NCBI GenBank assembly: GCA_021807595.1
Contig: JAKBCS010000025.1
Location: 1 to 47,914, forward strand
Source: Planctomycetota bacterium
GTDB taxonomy: Bacteria > Planctomycetota > Planctomycetia > Gemmatales > Gemmataceae
Direction: 5' to 3'
Length of the DNA: 47,914 nt
Both the position numbers and the translations under genes were made by a program. Shown in pieces: positions 11,501 to 25,679 of this stretch (positions are counted from its first letter, which is position 1; each line of letters begins with the position of its first letter). A model generated the notes under the pieces. That model had not been told where the DNA came from. It did no database searches and was given only the letters and a program-made list of their open reading frames with translations.

Positions 11501-12427
11501 AGCCGTTCGCTTCAGCTGTCGGTCCTGGAAACGCTGACCGGAGAGTCCGAATGGCGGGCCGTCCAAGCGTTCGTGCAGCGCTACGGCGGCGATCTGTTCC
11601 ACGCGCGGTTTATGACTTTGGGTAATCTGCGCGGCATTCTCCATCGAGGCGTCGGGGGATATTTGGACTATTTGCGGGACAATCCCGATCCACTTCATCC
11701 CATTCGCCTGCTCGACGAGTTGGACAACGGCATCCGCCGCGACGACGCCGTTCGCCGTCTGGATATCGTTCTCCAAGCCATCGTCGAAAATTACGAAGAG
11801 TACAAGGACTACAACGCCACCACCACCCAATCGGATTACGGCGAGAATCTGCACGTCTTGCTTGAGTTCTTGCGTCTCAAGGCAGCTTACGAGCGCCACG
11901 CTTGGCAATTCCGCCCGCTGGCGATGGCCCACGAAGTCTTGGCGCGGCGGGATCGCGCGCAAACCGCCGTACTCTGGGAACAATCGCTCCTGCGCACGAC
12001 GCGCGATTTGGCGCGAGGACATCTCGATCAATTGGAACGTCTGGAACGCATACGCGGCGTGCGTCTCGGCACCATCCGAGATCGACTGGACGAACGTTTT
12101 ATCAAACCGCTGGCCTTGGATCGTCTGTGCGCCCTGCTCGAGCCGGCCATGCGTGAGTCGCGGGTAAAGGGCGAGCGAGCGACGTTCGCGCGGCTTCAAC
12201 GCGAGTTGCCGGCGTTCACCGACAAGCCGATGGGTGTCGGTCTCGACGTTCCGTATTGGCTGCGTCGCCTGGAGATGGAAGTGAACCGCGTTCGGGCGAC
12301 GCAATCGACCGTGGCCGTGTTGGCGGAACAGTTCTTCCGCGTGCCGCGCCGGCCGCTGACTTGGGACGAGTTGCAGCGTCAACTCGGCGACTGGGATCGT
12401 CTGTCGTTGCCGCCGCAGCCGCGCTGA
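8513..12427 (+). CDS. Large conserved-looking protein of unknown function (1304 aa)
   Basis: I do not recognise a named family. The start is taken as GTG 8513, which has AGAGGA about 7 nt upstream and gives VQEGYSELERIV; a TTG at 8405 would add 36 low-complexity residues. There is no signal peptide and no membrane helix, so it is probably cytoplasmic. It is rich in Leu, Arg and Glu with predicted long helices throughout (an alpha-solenoid-like look). One acidic, Ser/Asp-rich stretch (around DSTDDNEDSSIADGG, residues ~700-715) divides it into two halves. Aromatic-rich islands such as FGEWDPHHLDN and GIGGWGPSAHDS in the first third look like conserved functional segments. The gene stands alone: 272 bp upstream and 184 bp downstream are free of genes. 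No enzymatic motif was found. Confidence 0.85.
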   Translation: MQEGYSELERIVSASSLLGYLNFSDGRPDPRWRKQLNEAFAHLAQRGEERPWQALLDWLQVRLSHLHDEGSAAFRDASQAGGILENAGRVLKAYRTYHVDLLAHLSDRELFGPFFLARAMEALLVERAKSAENEPPIAGALARLNDYVGHRPVAILETRPQGEPYEHERHCPLPYYFRGAGTAYGHYSELIAGALDILRTLDPALCAEAQFEFDLLDELVVDLRAYDHGHPVNRRPNYVFGEWDPHHLDNQGRFRRYVARKITLDALMDRIDAPGPLPREELLREGAAVLAGTLLMSTGIGGWGPSAHDSTTTLAALLPRIVRYRDLFYEYLLKRLEGTHAARLRDEQATARQAFGGARQHLNGYLARHRAMQLQQRYLALLFAEMGYAEASRDEARRIPAVSVRLLSEILGRLTGGEVEADRGQLREAARRLSEVEDLLQRGIGCGAFVDPWNILGFQGLFPLSPAREDSIRDPRVDELIQVVEHLFNLYARLMSEAAACGEDELARTLQEGLKRKTAWWDRFATIEVGDVRRLHGNEASSSAAGVANALAHWRRRGETSADLAFWRDQLELFRSPKAFSLVVDALLRKADYRSAQALLCSWLGRAEQVPLEDGVWSFHNLTLRWILAAVKRPDGVSTSQSLPSRDLIVKFFDHLEANAEEYWQVPDLVLIGPTPTEEREEDLFDAAYEGVVYQDSTDDNEDSSIADGGPVEEFELETEGERLEKRLHFLSTLSRLWQIAARAAAEDERAGHRWEQSVGAWLRTARDNRRRLMNLLDAIHAHPLQEPSGDYDSLVEFDRRRVVKEQLLFAAIGACLDTSMAVGSLQGALGERGDDSTEADAGSPAWEPFAIRLERALFAGEAAAAREVLPSFLELFQSEPLLFAPLAEGGGPREILRVRVAQTVLRALLANLPRLGLLRETYDLLRTSRAMEQAQPMRGRGVTEFNHFFQAAYQAVVESVVESAPMWGNRQNSDEELVSVLERLTAPFLTLWIEHSRSLQLSVLETLTGESEWRAVQAFVQRYGGDLFHARFMTLGNLRGILHRGVGGYLDYLRDNPDPLHPIRLLDELDNGIRRDDAVRRLDIVLQAIVENYEEYKDYNATTTQSDYGENLHVLLEFLRLKAAYERHAWQFRPLAMAHEVLARRDRAQTAVLWEQSLLRTTRDLARGHLDQLERLERIRGVRLGTIRDRLDERFIKPLALDRLCALLEPAMRESRVKGERATFARLQRELPAFTDKPMGVGLDVPYWLRRLEMEVNRVRATQSTVAVLAEQFFRVPRRPLTWDELQRQLGDWDRLSLPPQPR

Positions 12428-12504
12428 AATCGACGCTTCCCGCCGGTTCGATAAAATCGGCTCATTCTTGAGTCCCAGGAGCGATCCACTCGGACAATGC
12501 CGTC

Positions 12505-12533
12505 TTGACGCTAACCGGGTTGCCTGCGACGAT
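12505..12533 (+). promoter_or_regulatory. Possible promoter of the cytochrome c maturation operon
   Basis: TTGACG (12505-12510), a 17-bp spacer and GACGAT (12528-12533). The -35 is good and the -10 is poor. It lies about 80 bp ahead of the lipoprotein start in a 184-bp gap that otherwise holds no gene. Confidence 0.3.
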
Positions 12534-12611
12534 AAACAAATCGCCGCCCGCCGACCAGCCGAACCAATCCCGCCGTATTCGGGATCGCGCCTCGTAACAA
12601 AGGTTCCTCGC

Positions 12612-13640
12612 ATGGCATGGAAACCCTTTCTCTCTCGCCGCAACCTGTGCTTGGTCTGCGCCGCTTTCGTCCTGTCCGGTTGCCGCAAGCAGGAGGAGAT
12701 TCACGAATACAGCGTTCCCAAAGAACCGCCGGTGCGTCTGTTGGCGGTGTTGGTTCCGCGCGACGACAGCACTTGGTTCTTCAAGTTGATCGGTCCGGCC
12801 TCCGAAGTGGGCAAGCATGTGAAAGCCTTCGATCAATTTGTCGCTTCCGTTCATTTCACGAATCGGGCTGGCTCACCCATCGAATGGACCGTGCCCGAAA
12901 GTTGGAGCGAGGAACATAGCGACGAGCGATTCTACGCCGTCCTTCGCGTCGCGGGACAGTCGATGCCGGTGCCTATCACCGTAACGCGGCTTGGGCCTCA
13001 AGCCAAAAATGTTCGCGCCAATGTAGACAGGTGGAGGAACCAGATCGGACTCGATGAGATCGCCGAGGCCGACTTGAGCAAGCTCGACAGCAATATCCAG
13101 GTGGATGGCGGCAAGGCGACGCGTGTGGACTTCATTGGGCCGGGGGCAGGCAAGGGCGTCTACCGAGGCGATGCCGTTCCGCCCCGCCGCCCCTTCGCCT
13201 TCGCCAAGCCCAAGGCGTGGGAAGAATTGCCCGCCGACTCGATAAAAGGCTTTCGCCGCGAGGCCGTGTTTCGAGTTGGCGAGGGAGCAAAGACCGCGCA
13301 AACCACGGTCATGCGTTTCAACGGCGATGGCGGCGGCGATTTGATGAACGTCAATCGCTGGCGAGGCGAGCTTGGACTCGAACCGGCTAAGGAAGAAGAT
13401 CTGCGTCGAGACGTGCGCGCGTTGAAATCGGCGTCGGGACCGGCGCGCTATATCGAATTGTCGGGCCGCGAGAAGGGCGAGGCAAAGGCGACGTTGGGCG
13501 CTTGGCTGGCCCACGGCGGGCAAACGTGGTTTATCACAATGAAAGGGCCGGCCGATACCGTTCGCGCGCAGAAGCCGGCTTTTGAAGCGTTCGTTCAATC
13601 GTTCCGCTTCGACAGCGGGGCAGGAGCAGCTCATGAGTGA
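12612..13640 (+). CDS. Lipoprotein with duplicated domain, coupled to cytochrome c maturation genes
   Basis: A 342-aa protein. ATG 12612 has AAAGG upstream and gives a lipoprotein signal with lipobox LSGC (Cys24), so it is probably anchored on the outer face of a membrane. Two internal duplications are visible. WFFKLIGPASEV (N-terminal third) and WFITMKGPADTV (C-terminal end) are each followed by an F-x2-F-(V)-x-S-(V/F)-x-F pattern. NVDRWRNQIGLDEI and NVNRWRGELGLEPA sit in two matching ~90-residue modules. The family is not known to me; similar planctomycete proteins exist near cytochrome genes as far as I recall. The gene overlaps resB by 8 nt, so it is translated with the cytochrome c synthesis machinery and may help it, for example as a periplasmic chaperone. 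That role is inference. Confidence 0.85.
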   Translation: MAWKPFLSRRNLCLVCAAFVLSGCRKQEEIHEYSVPKEPPVRLLAVLVPRDDSTWFFKLIGPASEVGKHVKAFDQFVASVHFTNRAGSPIEWTVPESWSEEHSDERFYAVLRVAGQSMPVPITVTRLGPQAKNVRANVDRWRNQIGLDEIAEADLSKLDSNIQVDGGKATRVDFIGPGAGKGVYRGDAVPPRRPFAFAKPKAWEELPADSIKGFRREAVFRVGEGAKTAQTTVMRFNGDGGGDLMNVNRWRGELGLEPAKEEDLRRDVRALKSASGPARYIELSGREKGEAKATLGAWLAHGGQTWFITMKGPADTVRAQKPAFEAFVQSFRFDSGAGAAHE

Positions 13641-19584: not shown

Positions 19585-20937
19585 ATGTCCACGGATCATC
19601 GGCATGCTGCCAATCATCTGGCACGTCTGCTCCAATCCGAAGCGCCGGACGCGGTGGCCGATCGATTGCGGCCACGCGCGGATCCCTTGCCTCCGGGCAT
19701 TCCTGGAGGTGCGCGGATCTCCACTGACGCCGTCGACCGGCGCTGGCAACTCCTTCCCTCCGCCCAAGCGAGCCGACCGCTGTTGCTCGATCCGCAGACG
19801 GACGAACAGAAGGACTGCTATCGGCATAACATTGAAAATTTCATCGGAACCGTCAAAGTCCCGGTCGGTCTTGCCGGACCTCTGCGCGTCAACGGCCTGT
19901 TCGCTCGCGGCGATTACTACGTTCCGTTGGCGACGACGGAGGCCGCTCTCGTCGCCTCGTATAGTCGCGGTGCCCAATTGCTGAGCGAGGCGGGGGGATG
20001 CACCAGCGTCCTGCTCAATGAAGGCATCAGCCGCGCTCCCGGCTTCGCTTTCCACGACATCCAAGAGTGCGGCCGGTTCGTCTTGTGGGCCACCTCTCAA
20101 CTCGACGCCTTTCGCAGGAGGGCCGAATCAACCACGCGCCACGGTCGGCTCAACGATCTCCGCATCACGCTCGAAGGCAATCACGTCTACCTGGTCTTCG
20201 AGTACACGACAGGCGATGCCTCCGGGCAGAACATGGTCACGCTGGCCACGCAAGCCGTCTGCGACTACATCCTCGAAAACTCTCCGGTCAAGCCGCGCTA
20301 TCACTTCGTCGAAGCGAATCTTTCGGGAGACAAGAAAGCCTGCGCCCAATCGTTTTTGCTCGTGCGCGGCAAGAAGGTCTGCGCCGAGGCGTTCCTTCCC
20401 GCCGAGCTGGTGAAGAAGCGGCTTCATGCGACGCCGGAGATGATGCTCGACTACTGGACGATGTCGGCGATGGGGGGCGTCCTCAGCGGTACGCTCGGCG
20501 TTCAAGGACACTTCGCCAACGGTCTGAGCAGCCTTTACCTCGCTTGCGGGCAAGACGTGGCGTGCGTATCCGAATCGGCGGTGGGTGTGACACGCTTCGA
20601 GATCACGGCGGCGAACGAGCTGTACGCCACCGTCACGTTGCCGAACGTCATGGTGGGCACGGTCGGCGGCGGCAGTGGTCTGCCCAGTCAGAAAGCGTGT
20701 TTGGACATCCTCGGTCTCGCCGGATCGGGGAGAGCGGCGGCGCTGGCCGAGATCGCCGCCGCCCTGTGTCTGGCCGGCGAGCTGTCGATCATCGGAGCGT
20801 TGTCCTCCGGTGATTTCAGCCGCGCCCATCGCTTGCTGGCGCGCGGAAAGAGTTCCCCAACGCGAACCGTCGCCGTCGATGATTCCGCCCCGGACGTTGC
20901 CGCGCCGACCACGAGAGAAAGCCCCGATCATGACTGA
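19585..20937 (+). CDS. Hydroxymethylglutaryl-CoA reductase, class I-like
   Basis: A 450-aa cytosolic enzyme that reduces HMG-CoA to mevalonate. ATG 19585 (GGGA about 7 nt upstream) is preferred over TTG 19573. All four catalytic residues can be placed: Glu119 in PLATTEAAL, Lys250 in SGDKKACAQS, Asp324 in CGQDVACVSES and His415 in FSRAHRLL. The substrate motif ENFIGTVKVPVGLAGPL (84-100), the cofactor motif DASGQNMV (211-218) and GTVGGGSGLPSQ (358-369) are also present. The C-terminal His and NADPH-type motif suggest class I, unlike the class II enzymes of most mevalonate-using bacteria. Planctomycetes are generally expected to make isoprenoids by the MEP route, so a stand-alone HMGR here is notable. 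It overlaps the UbiA gene by 8 nt, and no other mevalonate gene is in the window. Confidence 0.93.
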   Translation: MSTDHRHAANHLARLLQSEAPDAVADRLRPRADPLPPGIPGGARISTDAVDRRWQLLPSAQASRPLLLDPQTDEQKDCYRHNIENFIGTVKVPVGLAGPLRVNGLFARGDYYVPLATTEAALVASYSRGAQLLSEAGGCTSVLLNEGISRAPGFAFHDIQECGRFVLWATSQLDAFRRRAESTTRHGRLNDLRITLEGNHVYLVFEYTTGDASGQNMVTLATQAVCDYILENSPVKPRYHFVEANLSGDKKACAQSFLLVRGKKVCAEAFLPAELVKKRLHATPEMMLDYWTMSAMGGVLSGTLGVQGHFANGLSSLYLACGQDVACVSESAVGVTRFEITAANELYATVTLPNVMVGTVGGGSGLPSQKACLDILGLAGSGRAAALAEIAAALCLAGELSIIGALSSGDFSRAHRLLARGKSSPTRTVAVDDSAPDVAAPTTRESPDHD

Positions 20938-21895
20938 TCGCCCACAGTCGTTGGAACGCGGTCGCACTCCCGGCATCCGCCGCTGGTGGGTCTATCAGCG
21001 CGAACGGTTTCCGCTCGTGGGTCACGGCCTCCTGATCGCCGCCTTCAGCTTTTCCGCTCTGAGTTTCTCGATGCTTCTGCGCGGCCGGATACCACTACCG
21101 GCCGCGCTGCCCGTGCTGGTCTCCTTCACCACGGCCTTTCTCTTTTTCCTACAACTACGCATCGCCGACGAGTTCAAGGACTTCGAGGAGGACAGCCGTT
21201 ATCGGCCTTATCGTCCGGTGCCGCGCGGGTTGGTTACGCTGCGCGAGTTGGGGATGGTGGGTCTACTCGCGGCGGTCGTGCAGCTGGGATTGGCGATGTG
21301 GCTGCGCGTGGAAATGGTCGCGCTGCTCGCCGCCGCCTGGGCATACCTCTTCTTGATGAGCAAGGAGTTCTTCATCCCCGAATGGCTGAAAGCCCATCCC
21401 ATCCCCTACATGATTTCGCACATGGTTATCATCCCCCTGGTGGATCTCTATGCCACGGCCTGCGATTGGTTGGTGGCGGGGGAAGATCCGCCGCGCGGAT
21501 TGATCTGGTTCCTGGTGGTTAGCTACTTCAACGGTCTGGTTATCGAAATCGGTCGGAAGGTTCGCGGTCCCAAAGAGGAGGAAGAAGGGGTCAACACCTA
21601 CAGCGCGCTGTGGGGCCGTCGCAACGCGGTGCTGGCTTGGCTCGCCTCGCTGCTTACAACGGCCGTTTGCGCGTTCGCGGCGGCTTGGCAAATCGATTTC
21701 CTCTTGCCCGTGTCCGCGTTGCTCGTCGTCCTCCTGCTTGCGGCGGCGATTTGCGCGGCGTCGTTTCTGCTTCGACCCGAAGCCAAACGAGCGAAGCGAA
21801 TCGAGACACTTTCGGGATTGTGGACCATCCTGATGTATTTGAGTCTGGGCGGCGTTCCGCTCTTGGCGCGCGCCTGGTTCGGCGGTGGAGGGTAA
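20930..21895 (+). CDS. UbiA-family prenyltransferase
   Basis: A 321-aa integral membrane protein with about eight helices; ATG 20930 overlaps the HMGR stop by 8 nt. UbiA enzymes transfer a polyprenyl group from its diphosphate to an aromatic, sugar or glycerol acceptor using two Asp-rich loops that bind Mg-diphosphate. The first loop reads ADEFKDFEEDSRYRPYRPVP (D-x3-D-x3-D plus the RPxRPV basic segment), a good match. The second loop reads EIGRKVRGPKEEEEGVNTYS, where the usual second DxxxD is replaced by E-x3-K. This marks a divergent subgroup, and I cannot assign the acceptor. Neighbours suggest a lipid acceptor rather than a quinone ring. The PEP-utilising gene begins 3 nt after its stop, so this is the second cistron of the operon. 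Confidence 0.88.
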   Translation: MTDRPQSLERGRTPGIRRWWVYQRERFPLVGHGLLIAAFSFSALSFSMLLRGRIPLPAALPVLVSFTTAFLFFLQLRIADEFKDFEEDSRYRPYRPVPRGLVTLRELGMVGLLAAVVQLGLAMWLRVEMVALLAAAWAYLFLMSKEFFIPEWLKAHPIPYMISHMVIIPLVDLYATACDWLVAGEDPPRGLIWFLVVSYFNGLVIEIGRKVRGPKEEEEGVNTYSALWGRRNAVLAWLASLLTTAVCAFAAAWQIDFLLPVSALLVVLLLAAAICAASFLLRPEAKRAKRIETLSGLWTILMYLSLGGVPLLARAWFGGGG

Positions 21896-21898
21896 CGT

Positions 21899-24589
21899 AT
21901 GGGCTTGGTTATCCACGCGATTGAGGCGGAAGTTCACCATCCACTCGGGGGCAAGGCGCGGGCGCTGGCCGCGCTCCATCGTGCAGACTTCTCCATTCCC
22001 AAATGGCTGGCCCTCTCTGCCGAAGCCTTTACCGTCAGCCTGACACCCCAACAGCGCGAGGCACTCCAAGCCGCACAAGACGGCGAAGCGATTCGTACTC
22101 TCGTCGAACGGATTCAAGTAAGCGATGAGGTAGGTCGGGAATTGCGTGTCGCCCTCTCGACCCTTTGTCCCAACGGTGAACTGGTGGCCGTGCGCTCCTC
22201 GGCCTCGGATGAGGACGGCGCGCAACACTCATTCGCCGGGCAACTCGACAGCTTCTTGTTTGTCTCTGCGGAGCAGGTTGCCGACCGGGTGCAAGCAGTC
22301 TGGCGCTCGGCGTTCAGCGAACGCATTGTGGCGTATCGCCGAGAACATGGCCTCGATCCGTTGCCCCGCGCTCCAGCCGTCCTGATTCAGCGCGCGATTA
22401 ACGCGGAGGCGGCCGGCGTGGCCTTCGGTGCCGATCCCGTATCCGGTCGTCGCGAGGTGGCCGTCGTCTCCGCAGTCTACGGATTGGGCACCTCTCTGGT
22501 GTCGGGAGAAGCCGATGCCGACACCTACCACATCGATCGAAACGGAGCGATCGTGAGGCGGGCCATCGCCGACAAGGAAAGCGCCCACCGTCCCGCCCCC
22601 GGGAGTGCCGAGGGCGTTCGGGTCGAACCGATCCCGGCCGACCTCGCCCGCAAGCCCGCTCTGACGGACGAGCAAGTCCGAGAGGTGGCGAATCTGGCAC
22701 GTCGAGCCGGCAAACACTTCGGCCGGCCGCAAGACATCGAATGGGCGATGGAGGGCGGCCGACTTTATCTACTGCAATCGCGCCCCATTACTTCATTGGC
22801 CTCTCTGGTCGATCCAGACGGCATCCTCAATATCTGGGACAATAGCAACATTGCCGAGAGCTACAACGGCGCGACGACGCCGTTGACTTTCTCGTTCGCT
22901 CGCCGCGCCTACGAAGAAGTGTACCGTCAATTCTGCCGCATCCTGCGCGTCCACTCCGCCGCCATTGAGGAGAGCGACGAAGTATTCCGACACATGCTCG
23001 GTCTCGTCCGCGGCCGCATCTACTACAACCTTCTCAACTGGTATCGACTCCTCGCGCTGCTTCCGGGATTCACGGTCAACCGCCGATTCATGGAGCAGAT
23101 GATGGGCGTCAAGGAAGAGCTTCCCAAGTCTCTCGTCGACGAACTGGGCCACGCCGGATTGGGGGCGCGGCTCAAGGACGGATTCCGTCTCGTCCTCAGC
23201 CTCGGTGCCTTGGTTCGCCATCATCTGACACTGCCGCGCGAAATCCGGCGCTTCTACGAACGGCTTAATCGCGCGCTCGGCCCAACGCGTCCCGATCTGA
23301 CTCCACTGCGGGCCGACGAATTGCATGCGCGATACCGCAGTCTCGAACGGCAGCTCTTGACTCGCTGGGATGCGCCGCTCATCAACGACTTTTTAGCGAT
23401 GATCTTTCACGGCGTCTTGCGCAAGCTCGCTCGAAAATGGTGCGACGACCGCGAGGACACTCTCTCGAACGATCTCATCTGTGCCGAGGGGGGGATCATC
23501 AGCGCCGAACCGGCGCAGCGCGTCCGCGACATGGCCGCCGTAGCCGCCGCTCACCCGCGGCTGGTGGAAGCACTGAGCGCCGGCACTCTGCACGAAATCA
23601 ACCGGGCGCTCGACGAGGTTCCCGATTTCAAAGCCCGGTACCACGCCTATCTCGCCAAGTTCGGCGATCGCTGCCTGGAGGAACTGAAGCTGGAAAGCGC
23701 CACGCTGCACGATGACCCGCTGCTCCTCTTGCGGTCGGTGGGACAGTTGGCCGGACGCGCGGGCGCGGGGAACGCCGCCTCCGACGGACGGCGAGTGGAA
23801 TCCGACATTCGACGACAGGCCGAGGAGCGAGTGCGGCGCACGCTGCGATTTCGTCCGCTGCGCCGCGTCGTCTTGCCTTGGATACTCAAGCACGCCCGCG
23901 CTCGGGTGCGAGACCGCGAGAATTTGCGTTTCGAGCGCACCCGCCTCTTCGGCCGAGTGCGCTCGCTGTTTGTCGAGATGGGGCGCAAGTTAGCCGAGGC
24001 GGACGCGCTGGAGCATCCGCGCGATGTCTTCTTCCTGGAAGTCGAGGAAGTGCTGGGTTATGTGGACGGAACCGCGACTTGCACGAACCTGCGCGGTTTG
24101 GTCGCCCTCCGCAAGGAAGAGTTCGAGCGCTATGTATGCGAGCAGCCTCCGGCGGATCGCTTCGAGACGCGGGGCGTGGTGTATCAGGGCAATACGTTCC
24201 GTGACGTTAGACCGCCGCAAGGTGCCGAATCGGGAGGCGAGAACGAGAAGCGTGGTCTGGGATGCTGCCCGGGCGTGGTTCGTGGCCCGGCGCGCGTGGT
24301 AACCGACCCGCGCCACGCGACCCTGCGGATGGGCGAGGTGCTGGTCGCCGAGCGAACCGATCCCGGCTGGATCATGCTGTTTCCTTGCGCGGCTGGCCTG
24401 CTCGTCGAGCGCGGCAGTCTGCTGTCGCACTCGGCCATTGTTGCCCGCGAGATGGGCATTCCAGCCATCGTCTCCGTGGAGGGCGTCACGCGCTGGCTCC
24501 AAGACGGCGACTGGGTGGAACTGAACGGCGGCACCGGAGTGGTCGTAAAAATACAACCCCAACAATCGAGGGCGAGCGATGGGCAGTGA
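21899..24589 (+). CDS. PEP-synthase/rifampin-phosphotransferase-like dikinase without PEP barrel
   Basis: An 896-aa soluble enzyme; ATG 21899 has GGAGG about 7 nt upstream inside the UbiA gene. Residues 1-300 are the pyruvate-phosphate-dikinase ATP-binding domain: GGKARAL (17-23), VAVRSSASDEDGAQHSFAGQ (97-116) and IEWAMEGGRLYLLQSRPIT at its end. Residues ~310-770 form a long helical middle domain without recognisable motifs. The C-terminus is the swivelling phosphohistidine domain with GSLLSHSAIVAREMGIPAIV, His844 being the phosphocarrier. The PEP/pyruvate TIM barrel is absent. This order and size match rifampin phosphotransferase and related ATP-dependent dikinases, which move the beta-phosphate of ATP through His to an organic hydroxyl held by the middle domain. 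The acceptor here is unknown; a prenol or lipid hydroxyl is a reasonable guess from neighbours. It overlaps the next gene by 11 nt. Confidence 0.85.
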   Translation: MGLVIHAIEAEVHHPLGGKARALAALHRADFSIPKWLALSAEAFTVSLTPQQREALQAAQDGEAIRTLVERIQVSDEVGRELRVALSTLCPNGELVAVRSSASDEDGAQHSFAGQLDSFLFVSAEQVADRVQAVWRSAFSERIVAYRREHGLDPLPRAPAVLIQRAINAEAAGVAFGADPVSGRREVAVVSAVYGLGTSLVSGEADADTYHIDRNGAIVRRAIADKESAHRPAPGSAEGVRVEPIPADLARKPALTDEQVREVANLARRAGKHFGRPQDIEWAMEGGRLYLLQSRPITSLASLVDPDGILNIWDNSNIAESYNGATTPLTFSFARRAYEEVYRQFCRILRVHSAAIEESDEVFRHMLGLVRGRIYYNLLNWYRLLALLPGFTVNRRFMEQMMGVKEELPKSLVDELGHAGLGARLKDGFRLVLSLGALVRHHLTLPREIRRFYERLNRALGPTRPDLTPLRADELHARYRSLERQLLTRWDAPLINDFLAMIFHGVLRKLARKWCDDREDTLSNDLICAEGGIISAEPAQRVRDMAAVAAAHPRLVEALSAGTLHEINRALDEVPDFKARYHAYLAKFGDRCLEELKLESATLHDDPLLLLRSVGQLAGRAGAGNAASDGRRVESDIRRQAEERVRRTLRFRPLRRVVLPWILKHARARVRDRENLRFERTRLFGRVRSLFVEMGRKLAEADALEHPRDVFFLEVEEVLGYVDGTATCTNLRGLVALRKEEFERYVCEQPPADRFETRGVVYQGNTFRDVRPPQGAESGGENEKRGLGCCPGVVRGPARVVTDPRHATLRMGEVLVAERTDPGWIMLFPCAAGLLVERGSLLSHSAIVAREMGIPAIVSVEGVTRWLQDGDWVELNGGTGVVVKIQPQQSRASDGQ

Positions 24590-25679
24590 GATTAGCTCGC
24601 GCGCCGCGTTTTCGGACATCCGCTACGCTCAGTGCTGGGAAGACGCCGACATCCTCCTCGAAGCGCTGGCCATCCGACCGGACCACGTTTGCCTGTCCAT
24701 CGCCTCCTCCGGTGACAACGCCTTGGCACTCCTGGGCAAGAACCCCCGCCGCGTCATCGCCCTGGATTTGAGTCCCGCTCAGTTAGCCTGCGTCGAGCTG
24801 CGCGTGGCTGCCTATCGGGAGCTGCAACACGGCGAATTGCTGGAATTGATCGGTTCCGTGCCGAGCGATCGCCGCCGCGCATTGTACCAGCGCTGCCGTC
24901 CTCGTCTCTCCGCTTCGGTTACCGCTTTCTGGGACGGCCGGGCTGCAGAGATCGACGCGGGCATTGGCGCGGCCGGAAAGTTCGAGCGCTATTTTTCCTT
25001 GTTCCGACGCCGCGTTTTGCCTTGGGTACACGGACATCGAAAAGTCGTGGAGCTTCTGCGCGGCGGCACGGTGGAGGAGCGACAGCGGTTTTATGCCCGC
25101 CACTGGGACACCTGGCGCTGGCGACTCATGTTTCGATGCTTTTTCTCTCGCGCCGTCATGGGCCGCATGGGCCGCGATCCGGCGTTCTTCGATTACGTCG
25201 AAGGCCGCGTCGCCGACCGCATTCTCGATCGCGCGCGACACGCCCTGACCGCGCTCGATCCGTCCGCCAATCCCTATTTGCAGTGGATTCTGCTCGGACG
25301 ACACGCAACCGCCCTTCCCTACGCCCTGCGACCAGAGAACTTCGAAGCGATCCGCGACAACCTCGACCGTCTGGAATGGCATTGCCAATCGATCGAAGCT
25401 TACCTCAATGCACACCCGGACCTGGCCGTGGATTGTTACAACCTCAGCGATATTTTCGAGTATATGTCCGAGAACAATTACCGCGCGTTGCTTGAGATGC
25501 TGACGGCGCGCGGTCGAGTCGGCGGTCGATTGGCCTATTGGAACATGCTGGCCCCTCGCACTCGACCCGAATCCATGGCCGGACGGCTGCGCCCCTTGAC
25601 AGACCTGTCGAATCGATTGCACCATAACGACAAGGCGTTCTTTTACAGTCGCTTCGTAGTCGAAGAGTTGATCGCGTGA
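24579..25679 (+). CDS. BtaA-like S-adenosylmethionine 3-amino-3-carboxypropyl transferase (DUF3419)
   Basis: A 366-aa protein; ATG 24579 lies inside the preceding gene (11-nt overlap) with GAGG upstream. The DUF3419/BtaA layout is clear: an N-terminal YAQCWEDADILLEAL segment, a Rossmann SAM site SIASSGDNALALL with IALDLSPAQLACVELR, a helical middle with FERYFSLFRRRVLPWV, and a C-terminal SDIFEYMSENNYRALLE plus YWNMLAPR region. In BtaA this enzyme transfers the 3-amino-3-carboxypropyl group of SAM to diacylglycerol, the first step of betaine lipid (DGTS) synthesis at the membrane. No BtaB N-methyltransferase is in the window, so the product could be an unmethylated homoserine-type lipid or act on another alcohol. 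It is the last cistron of the HMGR-UbiA-dikinase operon. Confidence 0.87.
   Translation: MGSEISSRAAFSDIRYAQCWEDADILLEALAIRPDHVCLSIASSGDNALALLGKNPRRVIALDLSPAQLACVELRVAAYRELQHGELLELIGSVPSDRRRALYQRCRPRLSASVTAFWDGRAAEIDAGIGAAGKFERYFSLFRRRVLPWVHGHRKVVELLRGGTVEERQRFYARHWDTWRWRLMFRCFFSRAVMGRMGRDPAFFDYVEGRVADRILDRARHALTALDPSANPYLQWILLGRHATALPYALRPENFEAIRDNLDRLEWHCQSIEAYLNAHPDLAVDCYNLSDIFEYMSENNYRALLEMLTARGRVGGRLAYWNMLAPRTRPESMAGRLRPLTDLSNRLHHNDKAFFYSRFVVEELIA

Follow-up and report, generated by a model that had tools for sequence, protein, structure and literature searches.

An HMG-CoA reductase-like gene belongs to a seven-gene cassette that recurs across bacterial phyla and may direct synthesis of a lipid-type compound

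We analyzed a stretch of 47,914 nucleotides (the window; contig JAKBCS010000025.1 of assembly GCA_021807595.1), which is one contig of a 5.67-Mb draft planctomycete genome that is 95.5% complete. Four neighboring genes on its plus strand (19585-25679) encode a hydroxymethylglutaryl-CoA (HMG-CoA) reductase-like protein (HMGR), a UbiA-superfamily membrane prenyltransferase, a dikinase-family phosphotransferase and a DUF3419 protein, and all four open reading frames (ORFs) were confirmed by translation and Pfam search (Table 1). They belong to a larger cassette with the order HMGR - UbiA - dikinase - DUF3419 - polyprenol-kinase-like membrane protein - GNAT - AMP ligase, and these seven genes almost certainly serve one pathway. 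The best explanation, with a roughly even chance of being right, is that the seven enzymes, acting in an inferred order, make an amphiphilic, probably lipid-type compound. As far as open-access papers show, the gene set is new as a system; each enzyme is a divergent branch of a known family. Our search of those papers, in which absence is weak evidence, found no description of the set or its product, in agreement with the initial annotation, which knew of no described pathway using all four genes.

The four families and their tight spacing were as the initial annotation had described them when ORFs, Pfam matches and start codons were checked. HMGR and UbiA overlap by 8 nt if UbiA starts at ATG 20930 and by 59 nt if it starts at ATG 20879; a 3-nt gap separates UbiA from the dikinase gene, which overlaps the DUF3419 gene by 11 nt. 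The order HMGR-UbiA-dikinase-DUF3419 was found in two close relatives, one genome of the same genus (G003) and one of another genus of the same family (G025). The locus was absent from two further genomes of the genus, and HMGR was not found in the remaining 56 of the 59 genomes searched. In G025 three more genes directly follow DUF3419 and encode a 453-aa membrane protein, a GNAT and an AMP-binding ligase. The same three genes are grouped on another contig of the source genome (C155, 30588-34569), with 52-66% identity to those of G025. Therefore, the unit is larger than the four-gene view and comprises seven genes, split 4 + 3 in the source genome.

To survey the cassette, a UbiA profile made from an alignment was run against one genome per species of 84,980 species, giving 346 pattern matches and 321 confirmed relatives. 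Locus counts, gene order, gaps and distance correlations refer to the best 80 of these 321, whose phyla (about 19) were assigned by record titles. All seven genes are full length in 42 of the 80 loci, and many others reach contig ends. The exact order occurs in 33 loci and a permuted order with GNAT-ligase first in eight, mostly from Gemmatimonadota and Rhodothermota. The genes adjoin one another in many phyla, with median intergenic distances of 1 nt or less, which is beyond chance; the longest overlaps are partly due to automatic start-codon choice. The distance matrices of every gene pair are correlated (r = 0.49-0.86), a value reached by none of 300 permutations. Conserved order and correlated divergence thus mark one inherited unit. 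They support the single linked pathway of the initial annotation, and the recurrence across phyla, which that annotation suggested checking, was observed.

The groups represented are Planctomycetota, Verrucomicrobiota, Lentisphaerota, Cyanobacteriota, Acidobacteriota, Nitrospirota, Geobacter and its kin, Pseudomonadota, Gemmatimonadota, Rhodothermota/Bacteroidota, Chloroflexota, Elusimicrobiota, Rokubacteria, Armatimonadota, Latescibacterota, Actinomycetota, Deinococcota, Hydrogenedentota and Eremiobacterota. Because the majority of these genomes are metagenome-assembled, isolated cases could result from misbinning. One cultured host is the alphaproteobacterium Roseinatronobacter sp. S2, in which plasmid NZ_CP121116.1 bears the cassette and HMGR spans the record start. 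Since the order is kept in about 19 phyla, including cyanobacteria and this cultured strain, the cassette must matter to its hosts. The Nitrospirae bin GWC2_56_14 holds two copies (L132, L142) whose HMGRs both group with Geobacteraceae; one copy is closest to a bin of the same series, which may reflect transfer or a binning error. Apparent UbiA-dikinase fusions (L099, L101, L105) were rejected because they arose from ORF calling: the long ORF starts out in the wrong frame in its N-terminal portion.

Residues of HMGR were counted in 58 full-length cassette proteins and are given in human numbering. E559, R590, D690, K691, K692, N755, D767 and H866 are kept in all 58. Judged from this alignment, the catalytic residues are intact and the HMG pocket is altered. 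In HMG-CoA reductase, Lys735 forms a salt bridge to the terminal carboxylate of HMG (PMC9500038) and Ser684 makes a polar contact to it (PMC9500038, PMC12467776). Both residues are retained in archaeal, plant and Streptomyces mevalonate-pathway enzymes, the plant lysine being shifted by one alignment column. The cassette proteins share the fold family and the catalytic E559, K691, D767 and H866 of class I enzymes (human HMGCR, archaeal 6hr7, the Streptomyces mevalonate operon). In contrast to them, they carry S684E, M657Q and K735M/V/I/T/A, each in 58/58, have no surrounding mevalonate pathway and form a separate branch in the tree. The best solved relative of the window HMGR is the archaeal 6hr7, and the score of the window protein against the TIGR00533 equivalog model (312 bits) falls below the cut-off of 441.8. 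The new Glu at 684, itself part of the protein, could satisfy the former carboxylate site. The natural reading is that the enzyme is probably a thioester reductase for a substrate without the carboxylate of HMG, and on balance we favor a substrate other than HMG-CoA.

The carriers also appear to make their isoprenoids by another route. Mevalonate-diphosphate decarboxylase (MVD; MDD_C domain) was found in 1 of 49 carrier genomes, and DXR of the methylerythritol phosphate (MEP) pathway in 44 of the 49, as well as in the source genome, G003 and G025. The GHMP kinases of the source genome, classed by reading their sequences, were only IspE-, GalK- and beta-RFAP-like. These kinase types and the near absence of MVD rule out a complete mevalonate pathway, which the initial annotation had proposed to look for. 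Its statement that HMGR makes mevalonate as an isoprenoid precursor is therefore not upheld: the carriers use MEP, 48 of the 49 have no MVD, and the HMG-carboxylate residues are lost in every cassette HMGR. From the altered pocket and the counts of MVD and DXR, the enzyme probably reduces another acyl-CoA, and we are confident that it does not serve isoprenoid synthesis.

HMGRs of this type also occur outside the cassette. Solitary genes in Vibrio fluvialis (L208:11854-13116), Photobacterium (L209) and Vibrio campbellii (L210, ~12001-13131) encode proteins that are 60-63% identical and have D684, Q657 and M735. In the tree they are placed within the cassette HMGRs, without strong support (94/68), and the canonical enzymes lie outside; the cassette may be the source of the Vibrio genes. 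An Alteromonas macleodii plasmid (L211:4265-11026) encodes a thermostable-hemolysin family protein, an AMP ligase, a haem-oxygenase-like enzyme, an SDR, a TPR protein and an HMGR-like protein with A684, Q657 and Y735, and mevalonate genes are absent nearby. On a Sinorhizobium medicae plasmid (L212:6417-11126), an HMGR that has K at position 590 and is gapped at 684 lies between acyl-CoA carboxylase genes, which is a third non-mevalonate setting. The combination of E/D684, Q657 and no K735 marks a bacterial HMGR group that probably acts on a substrate other than HMG-CoA, and the annotation 'hydroxymethylglutaryl-CoA reductase' should be reread in bacteria without the mevalonate pathway.

The N-terminal half of the cassette membrane protein is related, by profile comparison, to polyprenol kinases of the SEC59/VTE5 type. 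Its matches (1e-29 to 1e-40) are cyanobacterial polyprenol-kinase-type proteins, which we take to be members of the VTE5/SEC59 family; Pfam names only one of three such proteins tested, and that one weakly. Unlike the phytol and dolichol kinases VTE5/SEC59 (with VTE6/DUF92), the cassette protein is about 450 aa long with a second membrane half, which is tentatively DUF92/VTE6-like. The one protein that Pfam CTP_transf_1 detects in the source genome is not the kinase-like protein; its length and score point to CdsA. For the AMP ligase, the nearest NCBIfam models are PRK09274 and OleC beta-lactone synthetases.

In filamentous cyanobacteria the cassette has neither HMGR nor the kinase-like gene, and the genes upstream of UbiA encode a radical-SAM/SPASM protein, a 343-aa membrane protein and a small membrane protein (e.g. 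L141:7244-9981). A Verrucomicrobia locus (L146:4531-7308) has this cyanobacterial-type trio plus HMGR. A full-length kinase-like protein is present in 39 of 40 loci with HMGR in its slot and in 2 of 8 without it (Fisher p = 2e-5, for loci that are not independent and with phylogeny uncorrected). From this joint presence and loss we infer that the two proteins would act one after the other to supply UbiA, converting a thioester to an alcohol and then to a phosphate. Where phytol-type alcohols and kinases for them are already present, these steps would not be needed.

The cassette UbiA proteins keep the first Asp-rich motif, and none of the 81 has the canonical second DxxxD motif. The best solved-structure profile match is DGGGP synthase 6m31 (E = 7e-6, partial coverage). 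DGGGP synthase and chlorophyll synthase, the nearest solved relatives, share the first motif and differ from the cassette proteins in the second (Table 1). An ordinary quinone UbiA is ruled out by the non-canonical second motif and the lack of a close NCBIfam match. That annotation had named beforehand three findings contrary to its proposal (no conservation of gene order, a quinone-type UbiA, a complete mevalonate pathway), and none of them was observed. The ebo operon (PMC5133447), whose product is not known, resembles the cassette in being horizontally spread and uncharacterised and in having a UbiA gene. In general, the other genes of the ebo operon are not known to belong to the families of the cassette.

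The dikinase consists of an ATP-grasp domain, a middle domain and a swivel domain with its phosphohistidine kept, and it has no C-terminal phosphoenolpyruvate (PEP)-binding domain. Since PPDK_N and the PEP-utilizers mobile domain are the only ones present, a true PEP synthase is ruled out; 'PEP-synthase-like' in the initial annotation holds as a family name, while the architecture is that of rifampin phosphotransferase. The closest solved relative, 5fbs, is deposited as 'phosphoenolpyruvate synthase' and is rifampin phosphotransferase (RPH). Rifampin phosphotransferase and the prodigiosin ligases PigC/RedH have the same ATP-grasp, middle and swivel His arrangement without the PEP domain, whereas the cassette protein scores below every curated cut-off for these families and differs in middle domain and genomic setting.

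The DUF3419 protein has an S-adenosylmethionine (AdoMet)-methyltransferase fold (AlphaFold, pLDDT 92). We compared 64 cassette members with 19 ordinary planctomycete BtaA-like proteins, which are not biochemically proven BtaA. The two groups share AdoMet-side residues (WED, SAGxN, D63, WD). The presumed acceptor side differs invariantly, with NLSDIFEYMS in the cassette and LLDHMDWL in the ordinary proteins. The cassette protein thus shares the DUF3419 domain and AdoMet-binding core of BtaA and differs from it in its acceptor side, in its place within a seven-gene set and in that no BtaB-like N-methyltransferase recurs in the cassette (the search for BtaB covered the cassette and not whole genomes). 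The term 'BtaA-like' in the initial annotation therefore fits the AdoMet core and not the acceptor side.

We propose the following pathway. A carboxylic acid would be activated by the AMP ligase, and the HMGR-like enzyme would carry out a four-electron reduction of a non-HMG CoA thioester, giving a primary alcohol that may be allylic or 3-methyl-branched. The polyprenol-kinase-like protein would phosphorylate this alcohol, its tentatively DUF92/VTE6-like half adding a second phosphate. UbiA may then transfer the alkyl or prenyl group to an acceptor phosphorylated or activated by the dikinase, after which DUF3419 would add a 3-amino-3-carboxypropyl group from AdoMet and the GNAT would acylate the new amine. 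Filamentous cyanobacteria, which have their own polyprenol (phytol) kinases, would have lost the reduction and phosphorylation steps from the cassette together. Because the set crosses phyla and the HMGR substrate pocket is changed, the product is probably a lipid-like compound rather than ordinary isoprenoid precursors, and the cassette could lead directly to a new lipid or prenylated metabolite. That the product is a lipid with an aminocarboxypropyl head and an alkyl or prenyl group is a tentative suggestion, and the aminocarboxypropyl head on a prenyl or ether core put forward in the initial annotation may likewise be right. Somewhat less likely still is the fuller picture of an undescribed phylum-crossing lipid pathway in which an HMGR-derived general acyl-CoA-to-alcohol reductase feeds UbiA, the head group is a homoserine ether and the orphan Vibrio HMGRs are derived from the cassette.

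The Alteromonas HMGR-like gene supports the proposed pathway, being likewise beside an AMP ligase and an acetyltransferase-like gene. Several points weigh against it. The product and the enzyme activities are predicted from sequence. The HMG site still has R590, K692 and N755, and the loss of K735 and S684 suggests a new substrate without proving it. The match to DUF92 is weak: it is seen in 5 of 45 members, at best with 6e-5, and an unrelated membrane family scores equally. The model of the kinase-like protein (pLDDT 94.5) gave no significant Foldseek match in the PDB or the viral library, so the kinase-like assignment rests on sequence profiles. Two loci without HMGR in the slot retain the full kinase-like protein. 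UbiA enzymes normally require allylic diphosphates, and the proposal leaves the origin of a corresponding acid unexplained.

The most serious alternative, which we still consider unlikely, is that HMGR makes mevalonate as a building block of the product, with the AMP ligase activating the carboxyl of mevalonate (or its lactone) and the dikinase phosphorylating a hydroxyl. The catalytic and several HMG-contact residues (R590, D690, K691, K692 and N755) are kept in 58 of 58 proteins, the ligase is similar to OleC, whose substrates are 3-hydroxy acids such as mevalonate, and searches for GHMP kinases and MVD found no other mevalonate enzymes (HMG-CoA synthase was not searched in carriers). This is opposed by the replacement of S684, K735 and M657 in every member, given that archaeal, plant and Streptomyces enzymes keep S684 and K735. 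An ordinary BtaA making betaine or homoserine lipid on diacylglycerol would account for DUF3419 membership and the common AdoMet-core residues. It is improbable in view of the acceptor-side motifs, invariantly unlike those of the 19 same-phylum proteins, an identity of about 28% and the lack of a BtaB recurring in the cassette, and it leaves UbiA, HMGR and the kinase-like protein unexplained.

A mevalonate route to isopentenyl diphosphate free of GHMP kinases, in which the dikinase and the polyprenol-kinase-like protein are replacement kinases, would suit an HMGR adjoining two putative kinases and the missing MVD. We regard it as very improbable, as DXR is widespread in the carriers, cyanobacteria lack HMGR and the kinase and yet retain the other cassette genes, the set has no decarboxylase and the HMG pocket is altered. 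The family names alone would allow a chance or loose neighborhood of housekeeping genes (quinone UbiA, PEP synthase, stray HMGR); cross-phylum order, correlated divergence and the subfamily signatures in HMGR, UbiA and DUF3419 contradict this, leaving it a negligible probability.

Table 1. Genes, motifs and residues of the four-gene locus in the window
Feature	Position	Strand	Evidence
HMGR-like reductase, 450 aa, class I fold family	19585..20937	+	Pfam HMG-CoA_red PF00368, E=9e-111
HMGR catalytic Glu119 (human E559)	19939..19941	+	conserved 58/58
Gln215 replacing human Met657	20227..20229	+	Q in 58/58
Glu243 replacing human Ser684 (HMG carboxylate contact)	20311..20313	+	E in 58/58
HMGR catalytic K250	20332-20334	+	alignment
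Met293 replacing human Lys735 (salt bridge to HMG carboxylate)	20461..20463	+	never Lys, 58/58
HMGR catalytic D324	20554-20556	+	alignment
HMGR catalytic H415	20827-20829	+	alignment
UbiA-superfamily membrane prenyltransferase, 321 aa	20930..21895 (alternative start 20879)	+	PF01040, E=3e-13
UbiA first Asp-rich motif DEFKDFEED	21167..21193	+	pattern 81/81
UbiA second motif E..RK......E..G replacing DxxxD	21545..21589	+	81/81
Dikinase-family phosphotransferase, 896 aa	21899..24589	+	PPDK_N, E=6e-65; PEP-utilizers, E=9e-23
Dikinase swivel-domain His844 (SLLSH)	24428..24430	+	motif in 68/70 cassette dikinases
DUF3419 protein, 366 aa, predicted 3-amino-3-carboxypropyl transferase	24579..25679	+	PF11899, E=5e-73
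NLSDIFEYMS motif in DUF3419	25440..25469	+	alignment; ordinary BtaA-like: LLDHMDWL

Other genes recur near the cassette. Genes that read as cytochrome P450-like and sulfotransferase-like lie upstream of UbiA in L139, L164, L171, L172, L193 and L197, which suggests tailoring of the product. An MMPL/RND exporter (weakly HpnN-like; L097:5720-8242, L176:16155-18431) is encoded next to the cassette or next to a more distantly related cluster of AMP ligase, UbiA and dikinase genes, as could be expected if the product were a lipid. More distant planctomycete clusters (L096-L099, L101, L103-L105) contain UbiA, mostly with AMP ligase and dikinase, at about 30-43% identity. Mostly without HMGR, DUF3419 or kinase-like genes, they are a minimal pathway core.

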